This document shows, piece after piece, positions 18,022 through 28,217 of a stretch of DNA of 34,509 nt (positions are counted from its first letter, which is position 1; the number at the start of each line of letters is the position of its first letter). The stretch lies in contig BEHT01000036.1 of the NCBI GenBank assembly GCA_002898575.1, forward strand, positions 1 to 34,509, given 5' to 3'. Made by a program: the position numbers and the translations under genes. The stretch is from a bacterium HR17 (GTDB lineage: Bacteria > Armatimonadota > Fervidibacteria > Fervidibacterales > Fervidibacteraceae). The notes under the pieces were generated by a model that was not told the DNA's origin, searched no databases, and saw only the letters and a program-made list of their open reading frames with translations.

Positions 18022-19503
18022 TCACCTGCCGTCAGCGCCGAAGGGTGTCAATGGGGAGCGGGCGCCTGTCGGCATCACTTGAACGACGATGCGGTTACCT
18101 TTGCGGAACGGCTTGCCCGTACCGATCACACGGTTGTCGTGCCACAACACCAACGGATGGTGTAACGGCAGAAGGTCTCCGACCTTCAATTGGGCTAATT
18201 GCCGCAGCGGTATTGGGTCGCTCTGCCAACCGCAACGGAGTGTCACCACGACGCTGCGTGCCAGAGGTGTTGCAGAAGGGCGTGATGCCGTGCGCCGATG
18301 GCGTTCGGAAAAGCCCAGCAATGTATCAGCGGGTAACAACCATTGCAACACACCTACCTCCTCGCCGATGTGTATGCGGTGGGACAGCAAGAGCGCCCCG
18401 CTCCCTTCGTTCAACATCGTTGACGCTTGTGCCGTCCAGTCGCCCGTAAGAACATGCGTCAGCCGTAGGGTGACTTGCTCAGTGACTTGCGTCCACGCGA
18501 TGGCGTAAGCGTCGCCGACTGTCGCCATCACGGCTTGCAACACTGCTTGCTCCAGCGGTGTCCACGCCGTCGCAATGCGTTCGCCCATTTGCCCTGGTCC
18601 ACCCAGCCATCGGTCAATCAGTAACAGAGCGATGGATCGGCTTAGCGCCAACACCCACACCCCATGCCCGACGACTTGAAAAAAAGCGGCAACGCTCCAG
18701 TCGTATTCACGCCGCAAAAAATGGGCGCACGAATCCTTTTCCAACCGCAACGGCGACAATCGCGCCCCGACGCGCCCCCGCACCGTCATCAACTGGTTCA
18801 AGGTGAGTGGGAAGCGGTCGTGGACCTGTTGCAGCAGTGCGTAAACGGATCGTCCCAAACGATCCGGATTGGCAAAATCGTAGCGGGCGATGAACTGCTG
18901 GGGTCGGACGATATGCTGCGCCACAAAAAAGTCGCGACAGCCCCCGTTGCCCTGGGTGTCGCCGGGCATCAACGCAATTTCCAGCCGCAGCGTTCCCACC
19001 GGTGTCTCTAACGGGATGACCAACCGCTGGAAGTCACGGTGCGACAAGAGAATGCCTCGCCGCATCGTCAACTGGGGCGGTGAAATCATGCACACTTTGC
19101 CCGCCGCCTCCAAGTGCATTGCAGCCCGTCCCGCCAGCGTGTTCGCCAGTTCCTGCAGGGCGCTGCGGGCTAATTCGCTCTCTTGCAAAAAGTCGCTGAT
19201 CGGTAAGTTGCTGTCCAACTCTTCTCCCAGCATATGTTGCAAGAGCCGAAAGGCTGTGCGGTAACTCAAGCCCAGTAACACTAAACCGTTGAGGGCTCCA
19301 TCTACGCTGATGGCAACGGTGATGTCGGATTCTGTGTAGGCGGAACGAATGAACCTCAGGGCGCCCCGCGCCGCTCGCAATTCCGCCAATCCCTCCAGCG
19401 TTTCCATCGCCGCTACCAAAAATAGTTGGGCAACTTCCGCATACCACACCGCCACATCGTTCAAGTCTTGCGCCGACGACAGTTTGTCCTGAAATTCCGC
19501 CAT
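18022..19503 (-). CDS. Flagellar switch protein with fused CheX-like, FliM and FliN/SpoA domains
   Basis: The 493-residue protein reads as three domains. Residues about 10-185 resemble CheX/CheC phosphatases, with the motif S114-A-L-Q-E118-L-A-N121 followed by P142-P143 at the expected distance. Residues about 200-395 match the FliM middle domain (YDFANPDRLGRSVYALLQQV, LLIDRWLGGPGQ with the FliM GGxG, TPLEQAVLQAV). Residues about 415-477 match the SpoA/FliN domain (LRQLAQLKVGDLLPL, VIGTGKPFRKGNRI). The normal FliM N-terminal CheY-binding peptide is not seen. It is probably a C-ring component that binds and dephosphorylates CheY-P. B. subtilis FliY joins CheC and FliN domains; here a FliM core is also included. 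It ends the chemotaxis cluster, 255 bases after cheR. Confidence 0.85.
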   Translation of the reverse strand: MAEFQDKLSSAQDLNDVAVWYAEVAQLFLVAAMETLEGLAELRAARGALRFIRSAYTESDITVAISVDGALNGLVLLGLSYRTAFRLLQHMLGEELDSNLPISDFLQESELARSALQELANTLAGRAAMHLEAAGKVCMISPPQLTMRRGILLSHRDFQRLVIPLETPVGTLRLEIALMPGDTQGNGGCRDFFVAQHIVRPQQFIARYDFANPDRLGRSVYALLQQVHDRFPLTLNQLMTVRGRVGARLSPLRLEKDSCAHFLRREYDWSVAAFFQVVGHGVWVLALSRSIALLLIDRWLGGPGQMGERIATAWTPLEQAVLQAVMATVGDAYAIAWTQVTEQVTLRLTHVLTGDWTAQASTMLNEGSGALLLSHRIHIGEEVGVLQWLLPADTLLGFSERHRRTASRPSATPLARSVVVTLRCGWQSDPIPLRQLAQLKVGDLLPLHHPLVLWHDNRVIGTGKPFRKGNRIVVQVMPTGARSPLTPFGADGR

Positions 19504-19758
19504 GTCCGCTCACCTTACACATCGCCGTTGCAACAGGCGCGTCTGCCGACATACCCGGCGGGCTTACATCTTTTTGCACCGCAATGTGGCGAGCGAGCCG
19601 GACGCCGTGCCACATGTCAGTGGGGCGAGAGCCTTGCCTTCCCAAGCGCTGCGTCGCCATTGAACGGGCGCCCCAAACATTTTCGTCCAAACGGGCTTTT
19701 GGCTCTCACACCTCTTGCCGGCGGAAAAGCGAACACCTCTCGCGAGCAGGACCCACCG
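19504..19758 (-). other. 255-base intergenic region, cheR to fliM-like gene, with possible RNA structure
   Basis: This is the longest gene-free stretch in the window. On the minus strand GTGAGAGCC (starting near 19709) can pair with GGCTCTCGC (ending near 19625). That would be a nine-base stem with one G-U, closing about 65-70 bases. Smaller hairpins are possible inside. I compared it by eye with the cyclic-di-GMP riboswitch core and found no match. There is no clear promoter or terminator. AAGGTGAG just before ATG 19503 is the Shine-Dalgarno of the switch gene. It may be a leader, an attenuator or an eroded gene. Confidence 0.3.
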
Positions 19759-20520
19759 TCACATTCGCCGGTAAAACCCAAACCGCAGCGGGGCGAAACC
19801 GTAATCCGCTGGGTTGAGCAACACTTCCGATGCGCCCAAAAACAACACACCGTCTTTGACCAACGCTTGAGCGAACCTGTGGAAGATTTCCGGTTTCACT
19901 TCGGGACGAAAGTAAATCAGCAAGTTGCGGCAAAGGAGCAGGTGGACGCCCTGCAAGTAAGGGTCACTCAGCAAATTCAGCCGCTGAAAGCGCACCATCC
20001 GCCGCAACTTGTCGGGCACGACCAACTGTCCATCCCGCGTCTCAAAGAACGAGCGATAGGCAGGCGGGATGTCCCGCAGGTCGCCGACAGGGTAAATGGC
20101 TTGGCGGGCTTGTTGCAACGCCGCTTCGTCAATGTCGGTCGCAATGATGGTGTGAGCGCCCTGCGGGTCTATCCGGTGCAGCACGGCAGCCAGCGAATAG
20201 GGTTCTTTGCCGATAGAGCAACCTGCGCTCCACGCCCGTAGGGCTTTAAATCGGCGGAGCAATTCAGGCACCACCTCCGCCGCCAGCACTTCCCACATCG
20301 GTGGGTCACGGAAAAATTGGGTGACATTGATGCCTAAACTGTCCAGCAACTGTTGCCGCACCTGCGCGTCCTTTTGCAAGGCAGCCGTCAGTTGGTCCAC
20401 ATCGGCATAACCGTTGCGCTGCATGAAGGCAGCGATGAGACGCCGCAGTTGCGGCAGATGATAAGCGCTCAAGTCCAGTTTGAGCCAACGGCTCAACTGT
20501 TGAATTTGTTGCTCTGTCAC
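19759..20520 (-). CDS. cheR: Chemoreceptor methyltransferase CheR
   Basis: CheR methylates glutamates on chemoreceptors using S-adenosylmethionine. The 253-residue protein has the N-terminal helical domain (QLRRLIAAFMQRNGY) and the NVTQFFRDP segment. The SAM motif is WSAGCSIGKEPYSLA, and the beta-subdomain and CRNLLIYFRPE are present. The C-terminus GFAPLRFGFYRRM is typical. GTG 20520 has GAGG eight bases upstream; an in-frame GTG at 20529 overlaps that Shine-Dalgarno. The receptor in this cluster has no C-terminal pentapeptide for CheR docking, so methylation would occur through direct recognition of the helical bundle. Confidence 0.95.
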   Translation of the reverse strand: MTEQQIQQLSRWLKLDLSAYHLPQLRRLIAAFMQRNGYADVDQLTAALQKDAQVRQQLLDSLGINVTQFFRDPPMWEVLAAEVVPELLRRFKALRAWSAGCSIGKEPYSLAAVLHRIDPQGAHTIIATDIDEAALQQARQAIYPVGDLRDIPPAYRSFFETRDGQLVVPDKLRRMVRFQRLNLLSDPYLQGVHLLLCRNLLIYFRPEVKPEIFHRFAQALVKDGVLFLGASEVLLNPADYGFAPLRFGFYRRM

Positions 20521-20599
20521 CCGCAACACCTCGGAGCGGAACGCTTCACCCTTCGGCGGCGTTTAGCGCGCAGCCGCCTTTGTTCCATCCGTTCAAAGG

Positions 20600-21667
20600 T
20601 CACTTGGGCACCGCGTGCGTCGCTGTCAACGCCCCGATGACTTCCTGCACGACTTCCGCGATGCGTTGGGGCAACCGCTCCAGTGCCACGCCCTCTTGCG
20701 CCGCACCTAACTTCAGCGCCGATTCGGGCATGCTGGGGATGACGCAGGTTTCGGGTGCTTGCACCAGCGTTCGTCCGCCCCTCTCTTTCACCGTGAGCAA
20801 CCCGACGGCGCCATCGTTGCCCATGCCCGTCATCACGACGCCGACGCAACGGGTGCGGAAAACATGCGCCGCACTGTCCAGCGTTTTGTCGGCAGCGGGA
20901 CGAACGCCGTGCAACGGCGGCGAAGTGTCCAAGCGCAACCGACCGCCCCGATCCACGAGCAGATGAAACCCTGACGGCGCCAAGTAAACTTGCTGCGGTC
21001 GCACCGCCTCTCCGTCTTGCGCTTCGTGCACGGGCAACGCAGAAACTTGGTTCAAGTTGTTGGCAAAAAATTTCGTGAATCCGATGGGCATGTGTTGCAC
21101 CAACAAGATGGCGGCGGGCAAGTGGGGCGGCAGTTGGGAAAGGACATAACGGACCGCCGCCGGTCCACCCGTTGACGCTGCAATGACGACGACCGCCCAC
21201 TCCGTCGGTGACGCCACGACGGACGGTGCAGTCCGCCGAGCCGGCGTCAACAACACCCGCAGTTTCGCCCGCGCCGCCGCCTTGACCTTTGCCACCAGTT
21301 CGTCCCGCACCTTGTGGAAGTCCAGCGAGATAGACCCCGACGGTTTGGCGATGAAGTCCACTGCCCCCAACTGCAACGCCCTTAGCGTTACTTCAGCCCC
21401 TTCCTTCGTCAACGCGCTGACCATCACGACAGGGGTCGGGCACTCGCGCATCACGCGGTCCAGCACCGTTAACCCGTCCATAACGGGCATCTCCACATCC
21501 AGCGTCACGACGGACGGGCGCACCGTTTTGATGACCTCCAGCGCCTCTGCCCCGTTACTGGCGGTAGCGACAACTTCAATCTCAGCGTCTTCGCTCAGCA
21601 GCCGCGAGATCGCCATCCGCATGAACGCCGAATCGTCCACGACGACGACTTTGCACCAACGCTCCAT
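20600..21667 (-). CDS. cheB: Protein-glutamate methylesterase CheB
   Basis: CheB removes methyl groups from chemoreceptors and may also deamidate them; it is activated by phosphorylation from CheA. The 355-residue protein has an N-terminal receiver with D11-D12 and phosphoacceptor D57 (TLDVEMPVMDGL). A linker follows, then the methylesterase domain with the full triad S165 (IAASTGGPAAV), H192 (LVQHMP) and D285 (MTGMGNDGA). ATG 21667 has GGGAG five to six bases upstream; the in-frame GTG at 21679 would overlap it. It lies 16 bases after cheY. Confidence 0.95.
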   Translation of the reverse strand: MERWCKVVVVDDSAFMRMAISRLLSEDAEIEVVATASNGAEALEVIKTVRPSVVTLDVEMPVMDGLTVLDRVMRECPTPVVMVSALTKEGAEVTLRALQLGAVDFIAKPSGSISLDFHKVRDELVAKVKAAARAKLRVLLTPARRTAPSVVASPTEWAVVVIAASTGGPAAVRYVLSQLPPHLPAAILLVQHMPIGFTKFFANNLNQVSALPVHEAQDGEAVRPQQVYLAPSGFHLLVDRGGRLRLDTSPPLHGVRPAADKTLDSAAHVFRTRCVGVVMTGMGNDGAVGLLTVKERGGRTLVQAPETCVIPSMPESALKLGAAQEGVALERLPQRIAEVVQEVIGALTATHAVPK

Positions 21668-21683
21668 TTGCTCTCCCACCTTT

Positions 21684-22043
21684 TCATTGGCTCAGCCAGC
21701 GTTGGACGACCTGCTTGATTTGTTCAGGTTGAAACGGCTTGACGACGAAGTCTTTGGCACCCGCTTGCAACGCTTGCATGACGACGCTCTCTTGCCCGAG
21801 GGCGCTGACCATGACGACCCGCGCTGTGGTGTCCAGTTGCATGACCGATTTCAACGCGCTCAACCCGTCCATTTCGGGCATCGTGATGTCTAAGAGCACA
21901 AGGTCGGGGCGATGTTCTTGAAACTGCCGAACGGCTTCCGCTCCGTTAGCCGCTTCCACGACTTCTAAGCCCAACTCTTCCAGCACTTTGCGCAACTTCA
22001 TGCGAATAAATGCCGCATCGTCTGCGACAAGCACTTTCGGCAT
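21684..22043 (-). CDS. cheY: Chemotaxis response regulator CheY
   Basis: This single-domain receiver of 119 residues carries the chemotaxis signal from CheA to the flagellar switch. The acidic pair D8-D9, phosphoacceptor D52 (VLLDITMPEMDG), S80 and K102 (FVVKPF) are all present. The position equivalent to E. coli Tyr106 is Phe99. ATG 22043 has GGGAGG seven bases upstream, so the longer reading frame to 22082 is rejected. Its probable partner is the FliM-like fusion protein encoded in the same cluster, in which a CheX-like domain replaces the usual CheY-binding peptide. CheC and that fusion are the expected phosphatases. Confidence 0.95.
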   Translation of the reverse strand: MPKVLVADDAAFIRMKLRKVLEELGLEVVEAANGAEAVRQFQEHRPDLVLLDITMPEMDGLSALKSVMQLDTTARVVMVSALGQESVVMQALQAGAKDFVVKPFQPEQIKQVVQRWLSQ

Positions 22044-22078
22044 AGACCAGCCTCCCATTGTCGGGCTCTCCATTGCCG

Positions 22079-22576
22079 TCACAAAGCGATGCGGTGGACT
22101 TCACCTTGCCCACTGCGCACCGTTACCGTGCCGTCGGCGACGCGCAGCCGCACGACCCAGCCGGCGGCGCCGCCGACGAACTGCGCTACGATCTCCGCCT
22201 TTAAGTGCAATGCGCCCAGCACCGCTGCCACATTCATCGCCCCAATGTTCCTCCACGCCGTTCTGCTGGCACGCTGCATGGTCTGCAACATATTCGCTCC
22301 GCCGATGACGGCGCAACGGGGGCGCACCGCACCCCGTTGCGCCATTTGCGTTAAAAGGTGCGGGACGGCGATGTCAGCGAACCACAACGGTTTTGCCGCT
22401 GCGGTATGAAATTGCTGGCTGGACGGCAACACGATATGCGCCATGCCTGCCACCTTCGCTCGGCGGTGATACGCCACGACGATGACGCACGACCCGACAC
22501 CCGGCACGACCAGCGTCAGGCGGGGGTCATCGGTGACGACCACTTCGCCCAAACCGACAACGCGTTCTGTTTCCAT
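22079..22576 (-). CDS. cheD: Chemoreceptor glutamine deamidase CheD
   Basis: CheD deamidates receptor glutamines and, in Bacillus and Thermotoga, binds CheC and boosts its phosphatase activity. The 165-residue protein contains GVGSCVIVVAYHRR with catalytic Cys30 and AHIVLPSS with His47. The Cys-to-His spacing is 17, as I recall for the Thermotoga enzyme. The Thr that completes that enzyme's triad appears to be Val24 here, from memory of the family. VIGGANML is also typical. The start is ATG 22576, or GTG one codon earlier. It lies directly after cheC, as expected for a CheC-CheD pair. Confidence 0.92.
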   Translation of the reverse strand: METERVVGLGEVVVTDDPRLTLVVPGVGSCVIVVAYHRRAKVAGMAHIVLPSSQQFHTAAAKPLWFADIAVPHLLTQMAQRGAVRPRCAVIGGANMLQTMQRASRTAWRNIGAMNVAAVLGALHLKAEIVAQFVGGAAGWVVRLRVADGTVTVRSGQGEVHRIAL

Positions 22577-22594
22577 CACCTTCTGCCCCTTGCG

Positions 22595-23161
22595 CTATGG
22601 GCTCTGAAGGGGCAAGAAAAAGTGCGCCGTTCCGCCAGCGGGTTTGCCCTCGGGCAAATGGATTTGCAATCGCCAGACGGCATGCACAAGGCGGTCGCAC
22701 CCTTGCGCCGCCATCAGCGCCACCAAACTTTCCAGCAACGCGCCCGAAAAATCGGTGTGGGTTTCAGGCGGTGTCGGCAGCGCTTCACTGACCAGCTGCA
22801 ACTCTTTGCTCAACCCCATCAACAGCCGCGCCGTCACCAAATTGCCCACTTCCGCCAACACGGACTCGCGCAATTTCGGGTCATCGGCGCCGTCCAAGAC
22901 CCAGTCCGCGATGCGCTCGGCGTCCTGCGGCGCCAGCATCAAGACCAAGTAACCTTGCACGCACCCGTAAACGCCGACGACGATAGTGCGGCGGGTTTCC
23001 TGCGCTACATCCATCTGCGCCACCGCTTCCACCAACTCGTCCATGCCCCGCTCCACCCATTGTTGCGGCACAAACGCCACCGCCGTCCCGAGAAACTGCG
23101 CCAGCGCCTCCTCGCACTCTTGCCCTGCCGCTTGGATTGCCGTCGCAGTCATTTCCGCCAC
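22595..23161 (-). CDS. cheC: CheC-like CheY-P phosphatase
   Basis: CheC-family proteins dephosphorylate CheY-P and pair with CheD to adapt receptors. The 188-residue protein has an active-site motif S100-V-L-A-E104-V-G-N107 within RESVLAEVGNLVTARLL. Prolines at 129, 131 and 132 lie at the expected distance. A second S-x3-E-x2-N site, present in two-site CheC proteins, is not evident in the C-terminal half, so only one phosphatase site is predicted. The start is GTG 23161, nine bases after AGGAGG. It lies between cheA (6 bases) and cheD. CheX is the alternative name, but the adjacent cheD favours CheC. Confidence 0.85.
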   Translation of the reverse strand: MAEMTATAIQAAGQECEEALAQFLGTAVAFVPQQWVERGMDELVEAVAQMDVAQETRRTIVVGVYGCVQGYLVLMLAPQDAERIADWVLDGADDPKLRESVLAEVGNLVTARLLMGLSKELQLVSEALPTPPETHTDFSGALLESLVALMAAQGCDRLVHAVWRLQIHLPEGKPAGGTAHFFLPLQSP

Positions 23162-23167
23162 CGTCCG

Positions 23168-25093
23168 TCACCTCCTTGCAACGACACCGTTCAAGTCAAC
23201 GATGAGGGCGATGCTGCCATCGCCCAAGATGGTCGCGCCGATGAACGACTGTAGGGTGTGCAGCGGGTAGCCCAATGGCTTGATGACGATTTCGTCCTTG
23301 CCTTCCACGCTTTCCACGCCCATCGCCACCAAGCGCTCCCGCTGCCGCACAATCACGGCTGTCCGTTCGCCTTCGCCATCGTGGATGCCTAAAAGGTGCG
23401 CCAACGAACAGAGGGGCAAGGGGTTACCCCGCAGCATCAGCACCCTTTCGCTTTGTCCGATTACTTGAATGTCCGCCCGCTGCAAATCCAGCACTTCCGT
23501 GATGCTGTGCATCGGCAACGCGAACAACCGCCCACCAATGCGCACCAACAATGCGGGAATGATCGCAAGGGTCAAGGGTAACCGCAGCGTCACTGTCGTG
23601 CCCGCACCGACTTGGGAGTGGACATCCACTGTCCCGCCGATTTGCTCCATCGCCGCTTTCACCGCATCCATCCCGACGCCCCGCCCTGACACCTCACTGA
23701 CTTGCTCTTTTGTGCTGAAGCCTGAACGGAAAACGAGTTGTAGCGCCTCTTCGTCGCTGAGTGCGCCGGCTTGCTCATCCGTCAGCCACCCGCGTTCAAC
23801 GGCTTTGCGCCGCAATTTATTCGGGTCAATGCCCCGCCCATCGTCGCGCACGACGACGATCACGCTGCCTTCCGATTGCGACGCTGCGATTTCCAATGTG
23901 CCGTCGGGGGGTTTGCCCGCTGCGGCGCGCTCATCGGGCGGCTCAATGCCGTGGTCAAGGGCGTTGCGGACGAGATGGACGAGGCACTCGTTCAGTTTTT
24001 CCACCAACGCGCGGTCAATTTCTGTGTCTTCGCCGGCGATGCGCAACTGGACCCGCTTGCCCATACTGCGAGCCAACTCCCGCACCAGTCGCGGAAACCG
24101 CCCGAACACGACGCTCAGCGGCACCATGCGAGTTCGCGTCAACGCTTCCTGCAACTGACTGACGATGCGGCTCACGCGCTCTGTGACGCCCTGCAACTCC
24201 TCGGCGATGCCGTTGCCGTTCAACTCTGTGACTTTTTTGACGCCCCGTTCCAAGCGCGCCCGCTCAATGACTAACTCGCCGACCAAGTTCAGCAGTGCGT
24301 CCATCTGCTCAATGGAGACGCGGACGCTTTGCAACTCTGTCGGTGCTGCTGCCGGGCTTTCCGCTGCTTTTTCAGCCGTCACGATCTCGCTGACTTTGCG
24401 CCCTTCCTGCTGTCGCTGCACCTCCACGACCACATCGTCAAAGCGGCTCAACTCCTGCACCAACTCCGCTAACGCTGCGGCGTCGGGCAAAAGCACTTGG
24501 GCGACGACGCGATACTTGGCGCGCCCCACTTGGATTTCGCTGACCGGCGGGTCAAGGTGGACGACATCACCGAAACGGCTCATCGTCAGGTAGGCTTGAA
24601 ACGCCCGCGCTGCAGGCATCGGGCATTCAGGCTTGATGAAGATGTTAAGCGTCGCCGCGATTTCGCCCGTTAACGACGGGGGCTCTGCAGGAGGACTTGC
24701 AGATTGTTCACTTGGCGGTCGTTCTGCCAACGCGCTCAGTTGGCGAATGAGAGCGGACGGGTCAGGCGGCGACGCCTTTTGCCGCACGGCGACGACCATC
24801 GCCCGCAACACATCCACGCCCGCAAGCAATGCGTCCACCAAATCGCTGGTGACGCTGCGTTCGCCCTTGCGCACTTGCTCCAGCAAATTTTCCATCGCAT
24901 GGGCGAGTTGGCTCATCGCTGTCAAACCTGCGGCGCCTGCCGAACCTTTAAGCGTGTGGGCAGAGCGAAACAACTCAGCGATGAGTGCGGCGTCACCTTC
25001 CTGTTCCAGCCGCAGCAACCTGTCTTCCAAGATAGCGATATGTTCTTCCGCCTCAGCGACAAAGAGCGCCAGTTCGTCGGGCGTCAGTTCCAC
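23168..25093 (-). CDS. cheA: Chemotaxis histidine kinase CheA
   Basis: CheA autophosphorylates under receptor control and passes the phosphate to CheY and CheB. The 641 residues begin with P1 (H46 in SAHTLKGSAGAAG). A P2-like region follows (about 140-240), then P3 dimerisation (VRVSIEQMDALLNLVGELVI). The P4 ATPase has the N box (HLVRNALDHGIE), G1 (DDGRGI), F (FRSGFSTKE) and G2 (SGRGVGMDAV) boxes, and the P5 CheW-like domain ends the protein. There is no receiver domain. The start is GTG 25093, following AAAGGGTGA at the end of the preceding 19-codon frame. It is six bases from cheC. All key residues are intact. Confidence 0.96.
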   Translation of the reverse strand: MELTPDELALFVAEAEEHIAILEDRLLRLEQEGDAALIAELFRSAHTLKGSAGAAGLTAMSQLAHAMENLLEQVRKGERSVTSDLVDALLAGVDVLRAMVVAVRQKASPPDPSALIRQLSALAERPPSEQSASPPAEPPSLTGEIAATLNIFIKPECPMPAARAFQAYLTMSRFGDVVHLDPPVSEIQVGRAKYRVVAQVLLPDAAALAELVQELSRFDDVVVEVQRQQEGRKVSEIVTAEKAAESPAAAPTELQSVRVSIEQMDALLNLVGELVIERARLERGVKKVTELNGNGIAEELQGVTERVSRIVSQLQEALTRTRMVPLSVVFGRFPRLVRELARSMGKRVQLRIAGEDTEIDRALVEKLNECLVHLVRNALDHGIEPPDERAAAGKPPDGTLEIAASQSEGSVIVVVRDDGRGIDPNKLRRKAVERGWLTDEQAGALSDEEALQLVFRSGFSTKEQVSEVSGRGVGMDAVKAAMEQIGGTVDVHSQVGAGTTVTLRLPLTLAIIPALLVRIGGRLFALPMHSITEVLDLQRADIQVIGQSERVLMLRGNPLPLCSLAHLLGIHDGEGERTAVIVRQRERLVAMGVESVEGKDEIVIKPLGYPLHTLQSFIGATILGDGSIALIVDLNGVVARR

Positions 25094-25169: not shown

Positions 25170-25637
25170 CTACGATGCCATCGCCGCGACAACCGTCTCT
25201 TCATCTATCAGCCGCGTCGCGTCCAGCAGCAACACCAACCTGCCGTCCAATTTCAAAACGCCTTCCAAGCGGCGCGCTTCCTCGGGTGTGACCAAATCGC
25301 CGATCGGCTCCACCATGTCAGGCGTGATGCGGGCTACCTGCTCCACCGCGTCAACGGTGAATCCGACGAGGTGCTCGCCGAGTTGAGTGACCATGACCAA
25401 CGCTTTGTCGGCGGGCGTCGCGCCGATGCCCAGAAGGCGTTTGGTGTCCACGACCGCCATGATGCGTCCGCGCAAATTGACGATGCCCAAGATGAACAGC
25501 GGTGCACCGGGCACCTGGACGATGTCGCTCTGCTGAACGATCTCTTGCACATTGCGGATGTCCAATGCAAACAGCGTCCCATTGAGCCGAAAGACAACGA
25601 TGTGGCGCTCCTGCTGCTTGGCTTCCGCTGTTTGCAT
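25170..25637 (-). CDS. cheW: Chemotaxis coupling protein CheW
   Basis: CheW links chemoreceptors to CheA in the signalling array. The 155-residue protein is one CheW/SH3-like domain: VVFRLNGTLFALDIRNVQEI, the conserved GAPLFILGIVNLRGRIMAVVD and LVGFTVDAVEQVARI. ATG 25637 has AAGGAGG at good distance. It lies 45 bases after the receptor gene and 76 before cheA. Only one CheW is in the window. Confidence 0.95.
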   Translation of the reverse strand: MQTAEAKQQERHIVVFRLNGTLFALDIRNVQEIVQQSDIVQVPGAPLFILGIVNLRGRIMAVVDTKRLLGIGATPADKALVMVTQLGEHLVGFTVDAVEQVARITPDMVEPIGDLVTPEEARRLEGVLKLDGRLVLLLDATRLIDEETVVAAMAS

Positions 25638-25682: not shown

Positions 25683-28157
25683 TCACCGGTGCGCCAACGC
25701 TCGGACGGTGTAACCGTCGCCTTCCCGCTTGGCAACAGGCGCTTCTGTCTCTGGTTCGTCGCTGAGTTTGAATTGGCGGACAGCCTTCAACAGGTGTCGG
25801 CTTATCTCTGCCACCTGTTGGGCATTCGCCGCCACTTCCTCCGCTTGTGCGCTGATTTCCTCTGTCGCCGCCGAGACTTCTTCCATCGCCGCCGAAGTTT
25901 GCTCGCTCACCGTCGCCACACTGCGCACCTGCTCGTTCATGTCCGCTGCCGTCGCCGCCAACTCTTCCGTCGCGGCGGCGTTCTGCTCGGCGATCGCCGA
26001 CAACCGCTGCACCGCACCAAACACTTGCTCCAACGCGTGCGTCATTTCTTGCCGCGCTTGTTCCAACTCCGCGCTTTGCGATTGCACTTTGCTCACCGCT
26101 TCCACGATGCTGCCTAACGCTTGTTCTGCTTCGCCGACGGCGGCGGTGCTTTCGGTTACTTGCCGATAAGTCGCTTCCATCGCCTTGACGCTTTCTTCGG
26201 CTCCTTGCTGGACGGTGGCGATCAAATCGGCAATTTCCTTCGTCGCTTGCGCCGAGCGTTCCGCCAACTTCCGCACCTCGTCAGCGACGACCGAGAAGCC
26301 CCGCCCTTGTTCACCCGCTCGCGCCGCTTCTATCGCGGCGTTCAACGCCAACAAGTTCGTCTGCTGGGCGATGTCCGCGATCGTGCTGACAATCTTTCCG
26401 ATGTCCGCCATCAAGCGGTTCATGCTTTCCACGCGTTGCCGTGCCGTCTCCACCGCACCGCGAATAGTCTCCATCGCCGACAGCATCCGCTTGAGCCGTT
26501 GGGCGTTATCGGCAGCCACTCGCTGCGCTTCAGTGGCGGCTGCTACACCTTCGGAGACGACATGCGTGAAGCCCTGCAAAACTTGCTGGATGGTGTCCGT
26601 TGCGCGGGCTAAATCGCTGACGAGTTTGGCTTGCTCTTGCGCGCCGCTGGCGATACTTTCAATGGCACGGTTGAGTTGCTCAAACGCCGATTGCGTGCGG
26701 GCGACCGCTGCCGCTTGCTCCGTTGCACCTTGTGCGCTTTGCTGGACGGAGTTGGCAATTTGCGTGACGGCAGCGCCGACTTGCTGCGTAGCGGTCGCCA
26801 TTTGATCGCTGACATCGCCCAACCTTTGCGCGACTTGGCTGACTTGCAAAACGAGTTGGGCTAACTGCTGCGACGAAGCCGTATAAGCGTCCACCATCTT
26901 TTGGGCGCTGTCGGCGAGTTGGGCGGATGCTTTAAGCAAACGCCCTTCTTCCGTGCCATCGGCACTGTCCAGCGCGACATGGGGGACGACGATGTGAGCG
27001 CGGTAGGCAAGGTCACCGTTTGCCAAGCGTTGAAGTGCGGCGACCAACTCGGGAAACACTTCGTCGCTGAGTTTTCGGGCATTGCCGATGACCTGCTGTA
27101 AGCCGTCGGTCGTGGCGATGTAGAAGCCGATAAAGAGCCCGAAGGCGAGGGCGATAAAGGCAAGAGTGACGGTCAAGATGAGGGCGCGTTGGCGGGCAAG
27201 TTTCTGGACGCGGGCGTTGAGCAGGTTGTCCAGTTCCGCCGAAAGCGTTTTGGTCAGGTCAAACAAAGCGTCAATGGCAGCCGTCGCCGCAGCGAAATAC
27301 TCTTGCGGCGACAGGTTCAGTTGCGCCGCTTGCAAAACCCGCTCGTTAAGCAGGTTCAAAAAGGCGTCGGCTTTCTCCTGCGCCGTGCGCACTGCCTGCT
27401 CAATGCGGCTTTTCAATTGCGGGTTGTAGTTCATCGCCCGCTCCAAGCCCGCCAAAGCGCGCCGCTTTTGCCGCGATGCCAACTCGTAGGCAGCGGTCAA
27501 CTTCGCCCGCTCTTCGGCGTTCAACTTCCTGTCCGCCAGCGCCGCGGTGCCTTCTGACCTTGCCCGTCCCATCTGCTCGGCGGCATCGGGGAAGCGTTGG
27601 ACGACCGCCAGCATCAGGTAGTAGGTGTCCATTTCAGGGTCAAGGGACAGTTCGGATGCGTCGGCGATGTCTTGGCGCAGGGTGAGGATTTTGTCGACCA
27701 ACTCGGTGTGGCGCTGAAAACTCTCGGCACGGGACAGCCGTTCCACTTGGCTTTGCAGCGTTTGCCACTCCTGCTTGACGGCGTCCCACTTGTCCTTGAG
27801 TTTGAACTCGTCGCCATATTTCGCCATCACGGCGTCAACGGCTCTCATGTCATCGGCGATTTCCGACTGCTTTTGTTGCATCGTCGTCCTGAAGGACGCA
27901 TCGCCCGACAGAAACCCATCGGCGGCACCGCGATGTTGTTGGATGTGCTGGATGAGGGGTAAAAGGGGCTTGAGGCACTCGGTGCCTTTGAGTTCCTGAC
28001 GGGCAAAAGCGATGTCCGAACGCCATTGGGCATCCAGTTGGTAGGCGGTGACCAGAATAGGCAAGGTGAACGCACCGCCGATGAGCAAGATGCGGCGTTT
28101 GAAGTCCACGCGACGCATCAACGCGACGGCAGGGCGAAAGAGCGATTGCAACATCAT
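25683..28157 (-). CDS. Transmembrane methyl-accepting chemotaxis protein
   Basis: The 824-residue receptor has two membrane helices, about residues 23-41 and 326-348, enclosing a large (about 285-residue) all-helical sensing domain. That domain contains [14 protein letters not shown] and [20 protein letters not shown], motifs common in helical-bundle and NIT-like sensors; the ligand is unknown. A HAMP-like linker follows, then a long cytoplasmic coiled coil. The hairpin tip reads [20 protein letters not shown]...[16 protein letters not shown], as expected. There is no C-terminal CheR-docking pentapeptide (it ends RALAHR). ATG 28157 has AAAGGAG six bases upstream, so the longer GTG start at 28199 is rejected. 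It is the first gene of the chemotaxis cluster. Confidence 0.93.
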
Positions 28158-28196
28158 CTGCCGCTCCTTTCTGGCAAGCCATTGCGATTGAACCGC

Positions 28197-28217
28197 CACG
28201 CCGTCGCCAACGGCGTG
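28197..28217 (-). promoter_or_regulatory. Stable hairpin in the chemotaxis 5' leader
   Basis: On the minus strand CACGCCGT and ACGGCGTG form a perfect 8-base stem with a 5-base loop, extendable with one bulge to about 11 pairs. It falls between the sigma-28-like promoter and the receptor start codon, so it would be transcribed. There is no following U run, so it is not an intrinsic terminator. It could affect mRNA stability or initiation. Confidence 0.3.

Follow-up and report, generated by a model that had tools for sequence, protein, structure and literature searches.

FliY joins a CheC-type domain to FliN and has an N-terminal CheY-binding peptide of its own. At the rotor of Bacillus subtilis it removes the phosphate of CheY-P, with the CheC-type domain placed on a FliN-type tail. 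The anatomy of FliY has been described (PMC7355467; PMC6946799). FliM normally binds CheY through an N-terminal EIDAL motif (PMC6946799), and the middle domain of FliM itself has a CheC/CheX-type fold (PMC4832279; PMC6946799).

The window analyzed here, a stretch of 34,509 nucleotides from the armatimonadotal bacterium HR17, harbours a gene that encodes a CheX domain, a FliM middle domain and a SpoA domain. Like FliY of B. subtilis and Thermotoga maritima, the predicted protein unites a CheY-P phosphatase of the CXY family and a C-ring SpoA protein in one chain, and it coexists with a FliM that bears the CheY peptide. However, FliY is built from CheC and FliN and has the peptide, whereas the fusion consists of CheX, a FliM middle domain (GGPG) and SpoA, without the peptide. 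With FliM it shares the GGxG middle domain, its YDF start and the SpoA C-terminus, but the SpoA domain is weak and, in the alignment, a whole CheX domain plus linker occupies the place of the N-terminal peptide and tether. Stand-alone CheX proteins of T. maritima, Borrelia and many Armatimonadota have the same domain, S-x3-E-x2-N motif and chemotaxis operon setting; in the fusion CheX is covalently joined to FliM and shows an insert of ~9 residues ahead of the catalytic helix (alignment). The rings of Campylobacter, Helicobacter and Leptospira likewise combine FliM and FliN with an additional SpoA protein, but FliY there lacks the phosphatase sites (PMC6946799) while the catalytic residues of the fusion are intact. 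The chances are about even that the fusion does the job that FliY does in Bacillus and Thermotoga, from other parts.

Domains of the fusion and the che operon

The first-pass annotation had described a single reading frame holding CheX, FliM_M and SpoA in that order. The frame is indeed open over 493 aa, running uninterrupted from an ATG at 19503 to a stop at 18022-18024 (Table 1). It lies on the minus strand, a detail absent from that annotation; on the plus strand, stops occur all through the matching frame of 18022-19503. The domain order also held, each domain scoring above its Pfam curated cut-off. Pfam CheX matched residues 61-165 with 38.3 bits (cut-off 27), and Pfam CheC matched residues 112-145, over the catalytic helix, with 28.5 bits (cut-off 22). 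A profile of the two known fusions (see below) matched CheX chains of the Protein Data Bank over residues 22-178 with E values down to 4e-11 (solved CheX structures 3h4y, 1xko, 1squ and 3hm4, by sequence). The catalytic motif (S114, E118, N121) proved intact when the residues were checked by script, and E118 and N121 align with E and N in T. maritima CheX.

The FliM middle domain with its GGxG motif was recovered as well: Pfam FliM matched residues 208-394 with 42.4 bits (cut-off 27), and the two-species profile matched the FliM middle domains 4gc8 (E 7e-12) and 4fq0 over residues 199-397. The C-terminal SpoA domain is present but weak, Pfam FliMN_C matching residues 418-476 with 29.8 bits (cut-off 23.8); against a FliM_C profile of relatives the C-terminus aligned in hhalign with a probability of 95.5 % (E 1.5e-8). 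The fusion remained under the cut-off of the NCBIfam FliM equivalog TIGR01397 (64 bits, cut-off 219.6) and far from that of NCBIfam FliY (12.6 bits, cut-off 218), CheX and FliM domains being present instead. AlphaFold, run on the full chain with the two-sequence alignment, gave a pLDDT of 32, too low for the model to serve as evidence.

Table 1 Features of the fusion gene and of the che operon (positions in the window)
Feature	Position	Strand	Remarks
cheX-fliM fusion gene	18022..19503	-	493 aa, ATG start; AAGGTGAG ribosome-binding-like sequence just 5'
SpoA / FliM_C domain, residues 418-476	18076..18252	-	weak, 4-residue deletion
FliM middle domain, residues 207-395	18319..18885	-	Pfam FliM, PDB 4gc8
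GGPG loop, residues 301-304 (FliM GGxG motif for FliG contact)	18592..18603	-	alignment, script
linker, residues 181-206	18886..18963	-	alignment; 40% identity to congener
CheX domain, residues 22-180	18964..19440	-	Pfam CheX, PDB CheX chains, congener identity
CheX catalytic motif S114-x3-E118-x2-N121	19141..19164	-	scripted check; also in congener
cheR	19759..20529	-	
cheB	20600..21679	-	
cheY, probable substrate	21684..22082	-	
cheD	22079..22579	-	
cheC-like gene	22595..23161	-	one S-x3-E-x2-N site
cheA	23168..25093	-	
cheW	25170..25637	-	
chemoreceptor (mcp)	25683..28199	-	NIT + MCPsignal

The fusion is the final gene of a minus-strand che operon with the order mcp, cheW, cheA, cheC-like, cheD, cheY, cheB, cheR, fusion. 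Intergenic gaps in this operon are smaller than 80 bp, save for 255 bp (19504-19758) between cheR and the fusion, which may therefore be driven by a separate promoter. The CheC-like protein, whose gene adjoins cheD, scored far under the Pfam cut-offs and has a single S-x3-E-x2-N site, where a typical CheC has two. It is the only other CheX/CheC-type protein found in the source genome, in which no second CheX domain above the cut-off was present besides that of the fusion.

The first-pass annotation had also noted that the CheY-binding peptide seems to be missing. Scoring with a peptide profile built from eight Armatimonadota FliMs agrees with this: the best scores in the fusion and in the fusion of its congener were at chance level (p 0.29 and 0.33), and chance CheY peptides within the fusion were ruled out by shuffles. 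The alignment explains why peptide and tether are missing: the FliM part of the fusion starts only at YDF, the motif with which the middle domain begins.

Conservation, distribution and origin

A fusion of 505 aa, 55 % identical over residues 3-482, is encoded by the congener SKW126, a metagenome-assembled genome that is 61 % complete; the contig concerned is identical to JANZZQ010000160.1 (Armatimonadetes bacterium isolate SKW126). The gene has the same position, between cheR and a NAD(P)HX-repair gene. Since the congener has the same fusion, a chance or assembly join is excluded. Identity between the two proteins is 69 % in CheX, 54 % in FliM_M, 46 % in SpoA and 40 % and 27 % in the linkers, compared to 73 % for cheR and 75 % for the NAD(P)HX-repair gene. 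The SpoA domain of the congener scored 18.1 bits, under the Pfam cut-off of 23.8. Both fusions kept the catalytic motif, GGPG and, where FliM_M begins, YDF-x-NP-x2-LG, and pN was 0.31 against a pS of 0.75, with synonymous sites saturated. Judged from these comparisons, the fused chain is under constraint, CheX most of all. Both halves have long branches, as might be expected of a decaying remnant or of an assembly or annotation artefact, but a frame that is open in two species from separate assemblies with the same neighbours, a pN well under pS and an intact catalytic motif make either explanation highly improbable.

The fusion protein was searched in 291 Armatimonadota genomes, approximately 106 genomes that do not belong to this phylum, and two additional phyla represented by 393 and 388 genomes. 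Among the matches listed for these approximately 1,180 genomes, which reach only down to weak scores so that very divergent fusions could escape, only the source genome and SKW126 showed a match over both halves. A contig scan with the fusion protein alone gave no match, while a scan with the two-species alignment found SKW126; a plasmid scan revealed only distant stand-alone CheX-like matches. The fusion has thus so far been seen in two species of one genus. The open-licence papers searched contained no description of a CheX-FliM chain; the earlier impression that the architecture is undescribed therefore agrees with the papers, and beyond these two species with the genomes, that were searched. 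No SpoA proteins were found in three further genomes of the same genus, family and order (G002, G003, G004), which suggests that these bacteria are non-motile or the genomes incomplete.

In five relatives (G019, G023, G036, G047 and G049) cheX is directly followed by fliM as a separate, adjoining gene, so that the pair moves together without fusion. Most of the FliMs concerned have the CheY peptide. A candidate 558-aa cheX-fliM fusion in G019 was rejected, two genes being present there. In G049 the row cheX-fliM-fliN ends a che cluster (L079:6816-8817, minus strand), and a second SpoA locus lies on contig C54 of this genome. Another frame of G049 (L067:1468-2484, minus strand) has a FliG-like N-terminus, a low-complexity middle and a SpoA/FliN end; it is possibly a FliG-FliN fusion or a broken gene.

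The order of the genes points to loss of the stop that separated cheX from an adjoining fliM. Fusion of a local Armatimonadota cheX-fliM pair agrees with this order, but the CheX and FliM trees do not back it. The CheX half lay on a long branch outside the Armatimonadota clade, where it clustered with the CheX proteins of another phylum (96/95 support); its best identity was 41 % (E 2e-24) in that other phylum and 38 % (E 2e-18) within Armatimonadota. The FliM half also has a long branch, and its placement is not settled. From the tree, an outside origin is possible for the CheX half.

The remaining flagellar switch

It had been proposed that one protein could build both the inner and the outer C-ring, and the absence of a separate fliM was to be checked. 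This was not supported: on contig C19 of the same genome, a flagellar operon includes a fliM (333 aa, C19:14571-15569) and a fliN (106 aa) of its own. The operon comprises flgBC, fliFGHIJK, flgDE, motAB, fliL, fliM and fliN, followed by an apparent fliO-fliP fusion, fliQ, fliR, flhB and flhA, gene names being assigned by eye except where family searches were done. The apparent fusion of fliO and fliP is one 365-aa frame (G000:C19 15912-17006). Three SpoA proteins were found in the genome, namely this FliM, this FliN and the CheX-FliM fusion; there are two FliM-type proteins, one FliG and one FlhA. CheZ was not found in the genome. The fusion probably does not stand in for the whole switch but adds a second rotor part, one that bears an enzyme. 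With one FlhA, one FliG and three SpoA proteins in the genome, a non-flagellar type III secretion system is unlikely, and an SctQ-type ring protein of such a system was rejected, since the sole FlhA is encoded in the flagellar operon and the fusion gene lies in the che operon.

The two FliMs differ in ways that bear on which of them is the main switch protein. In the FliM of the flagellar operon the CheY-binding peptide GLSPEELQALLV (LSPEELQALL) was found at residue 11 (p 0.002). This FliM has the canonical position fliL-fliM-fliN, a stronger SpoA domain (52 vs 30 bits) and a slightly higher score for NCBIfam FliM (73 vs 64 bits), also under the cut-off. These observations make it unlikely that the fusion is the main FliM, reading CheY-P via CheX, with the short FliM as an accessory or scaffold, although the fusions match Pfam FliM_M better (42-44 vs 25-26 bits). 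A precedent for such an arrangement is offered by G047, which has two FliMs (L060:94-1029 and L078:7488-8543, both plus strand); the che-linked FliM beside cheX is canonical and the copy in the fli operon divergent. Two FliMs thus occur in another part of the phylum too.

The fusion could alternatively be mainly a CheY-P phosphatase, soluble or targeted to the switch, with its FliM half as a docking or dimerisation module that bears no load in the ring. The fall in identity from CheX through FliM_M to SpoA, which is below the cut-off in the congener, and the FliM/FliN pair elsewhere in the genome fit this explanation. However, GGPG and YDF-x-NP-x2-LG were kept in both species and the C-terminus is still recognized as FliM_C by hhalign. 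With a weak SpoA and a faster evolving FliM half, a role of this kind is retained as a minor, rather improbable alternative. Given the weak SpoA, and a FliM half that has changed more quickly than either cheR or the CheX half, FliN pairing or ring assembly of the fusion may be relaxed.

Proposed role at the rotor

The reading adopted here, to which we give about one chance in two, is that the fusion would be a second FliM paralogue with its own CheY-P phosphatase, located on the C-ring beside ordinary FliM. It is based on the intact domains and motifs, the fusion in the congener, the low pN/pS and the position at the end of the che operon, and further on an ordinary FliM with the CheY peptide beside a fusion without it, on the adjoining but unfused cheX and fliM genes of relatives and on the two FliMs of G047. 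The FliM half, with its GGPG loop and SpoA tail, would find its place in the C-ring via FliG and FliN; because the genome has a single FliG and a single FlhA, there is one motor for it to join. Ordinary FliM would bind CheY-P through its N-terminal peptide, and at the rotor the CheX domain (E118, N121) would dephosphorylate CheY-P, resulting in a shorter switching signal. In a genome with no CheZ and no other CheX but the weak CheC-like gene, such a phosphatase would close a gap. Read most economically, ordinary FliM would bind CheY-P in a ring where CheX-FliM would take its phosphate off on the spot; we infer ring incorporation, catalysis and the way in which the two FliMs would share the work from sequence.

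It can be speculated, at a much lower probability, that the switch in this genus partly senses CheY-P by destroying it. Catalytic CheX would then replace the peptide on one class of FliM, and CheX dimers, if formed, would bridge neighbouring FliM subunits. One chain would in that case read the signal, end it and account for cooperativity in the ring.

If the role as a second, phosphatase-bearing FliM is correct, the fusion would represent, after FliY, a second and separately built solution for bringing CheY-P phosphatase activity to the flagellar rotor. Built from other members of the same superfamily, it would suggest repeated selection for signal ending at the motor. The fusion also provides a natural test of what the CheY-binding peptide of FliM is for.
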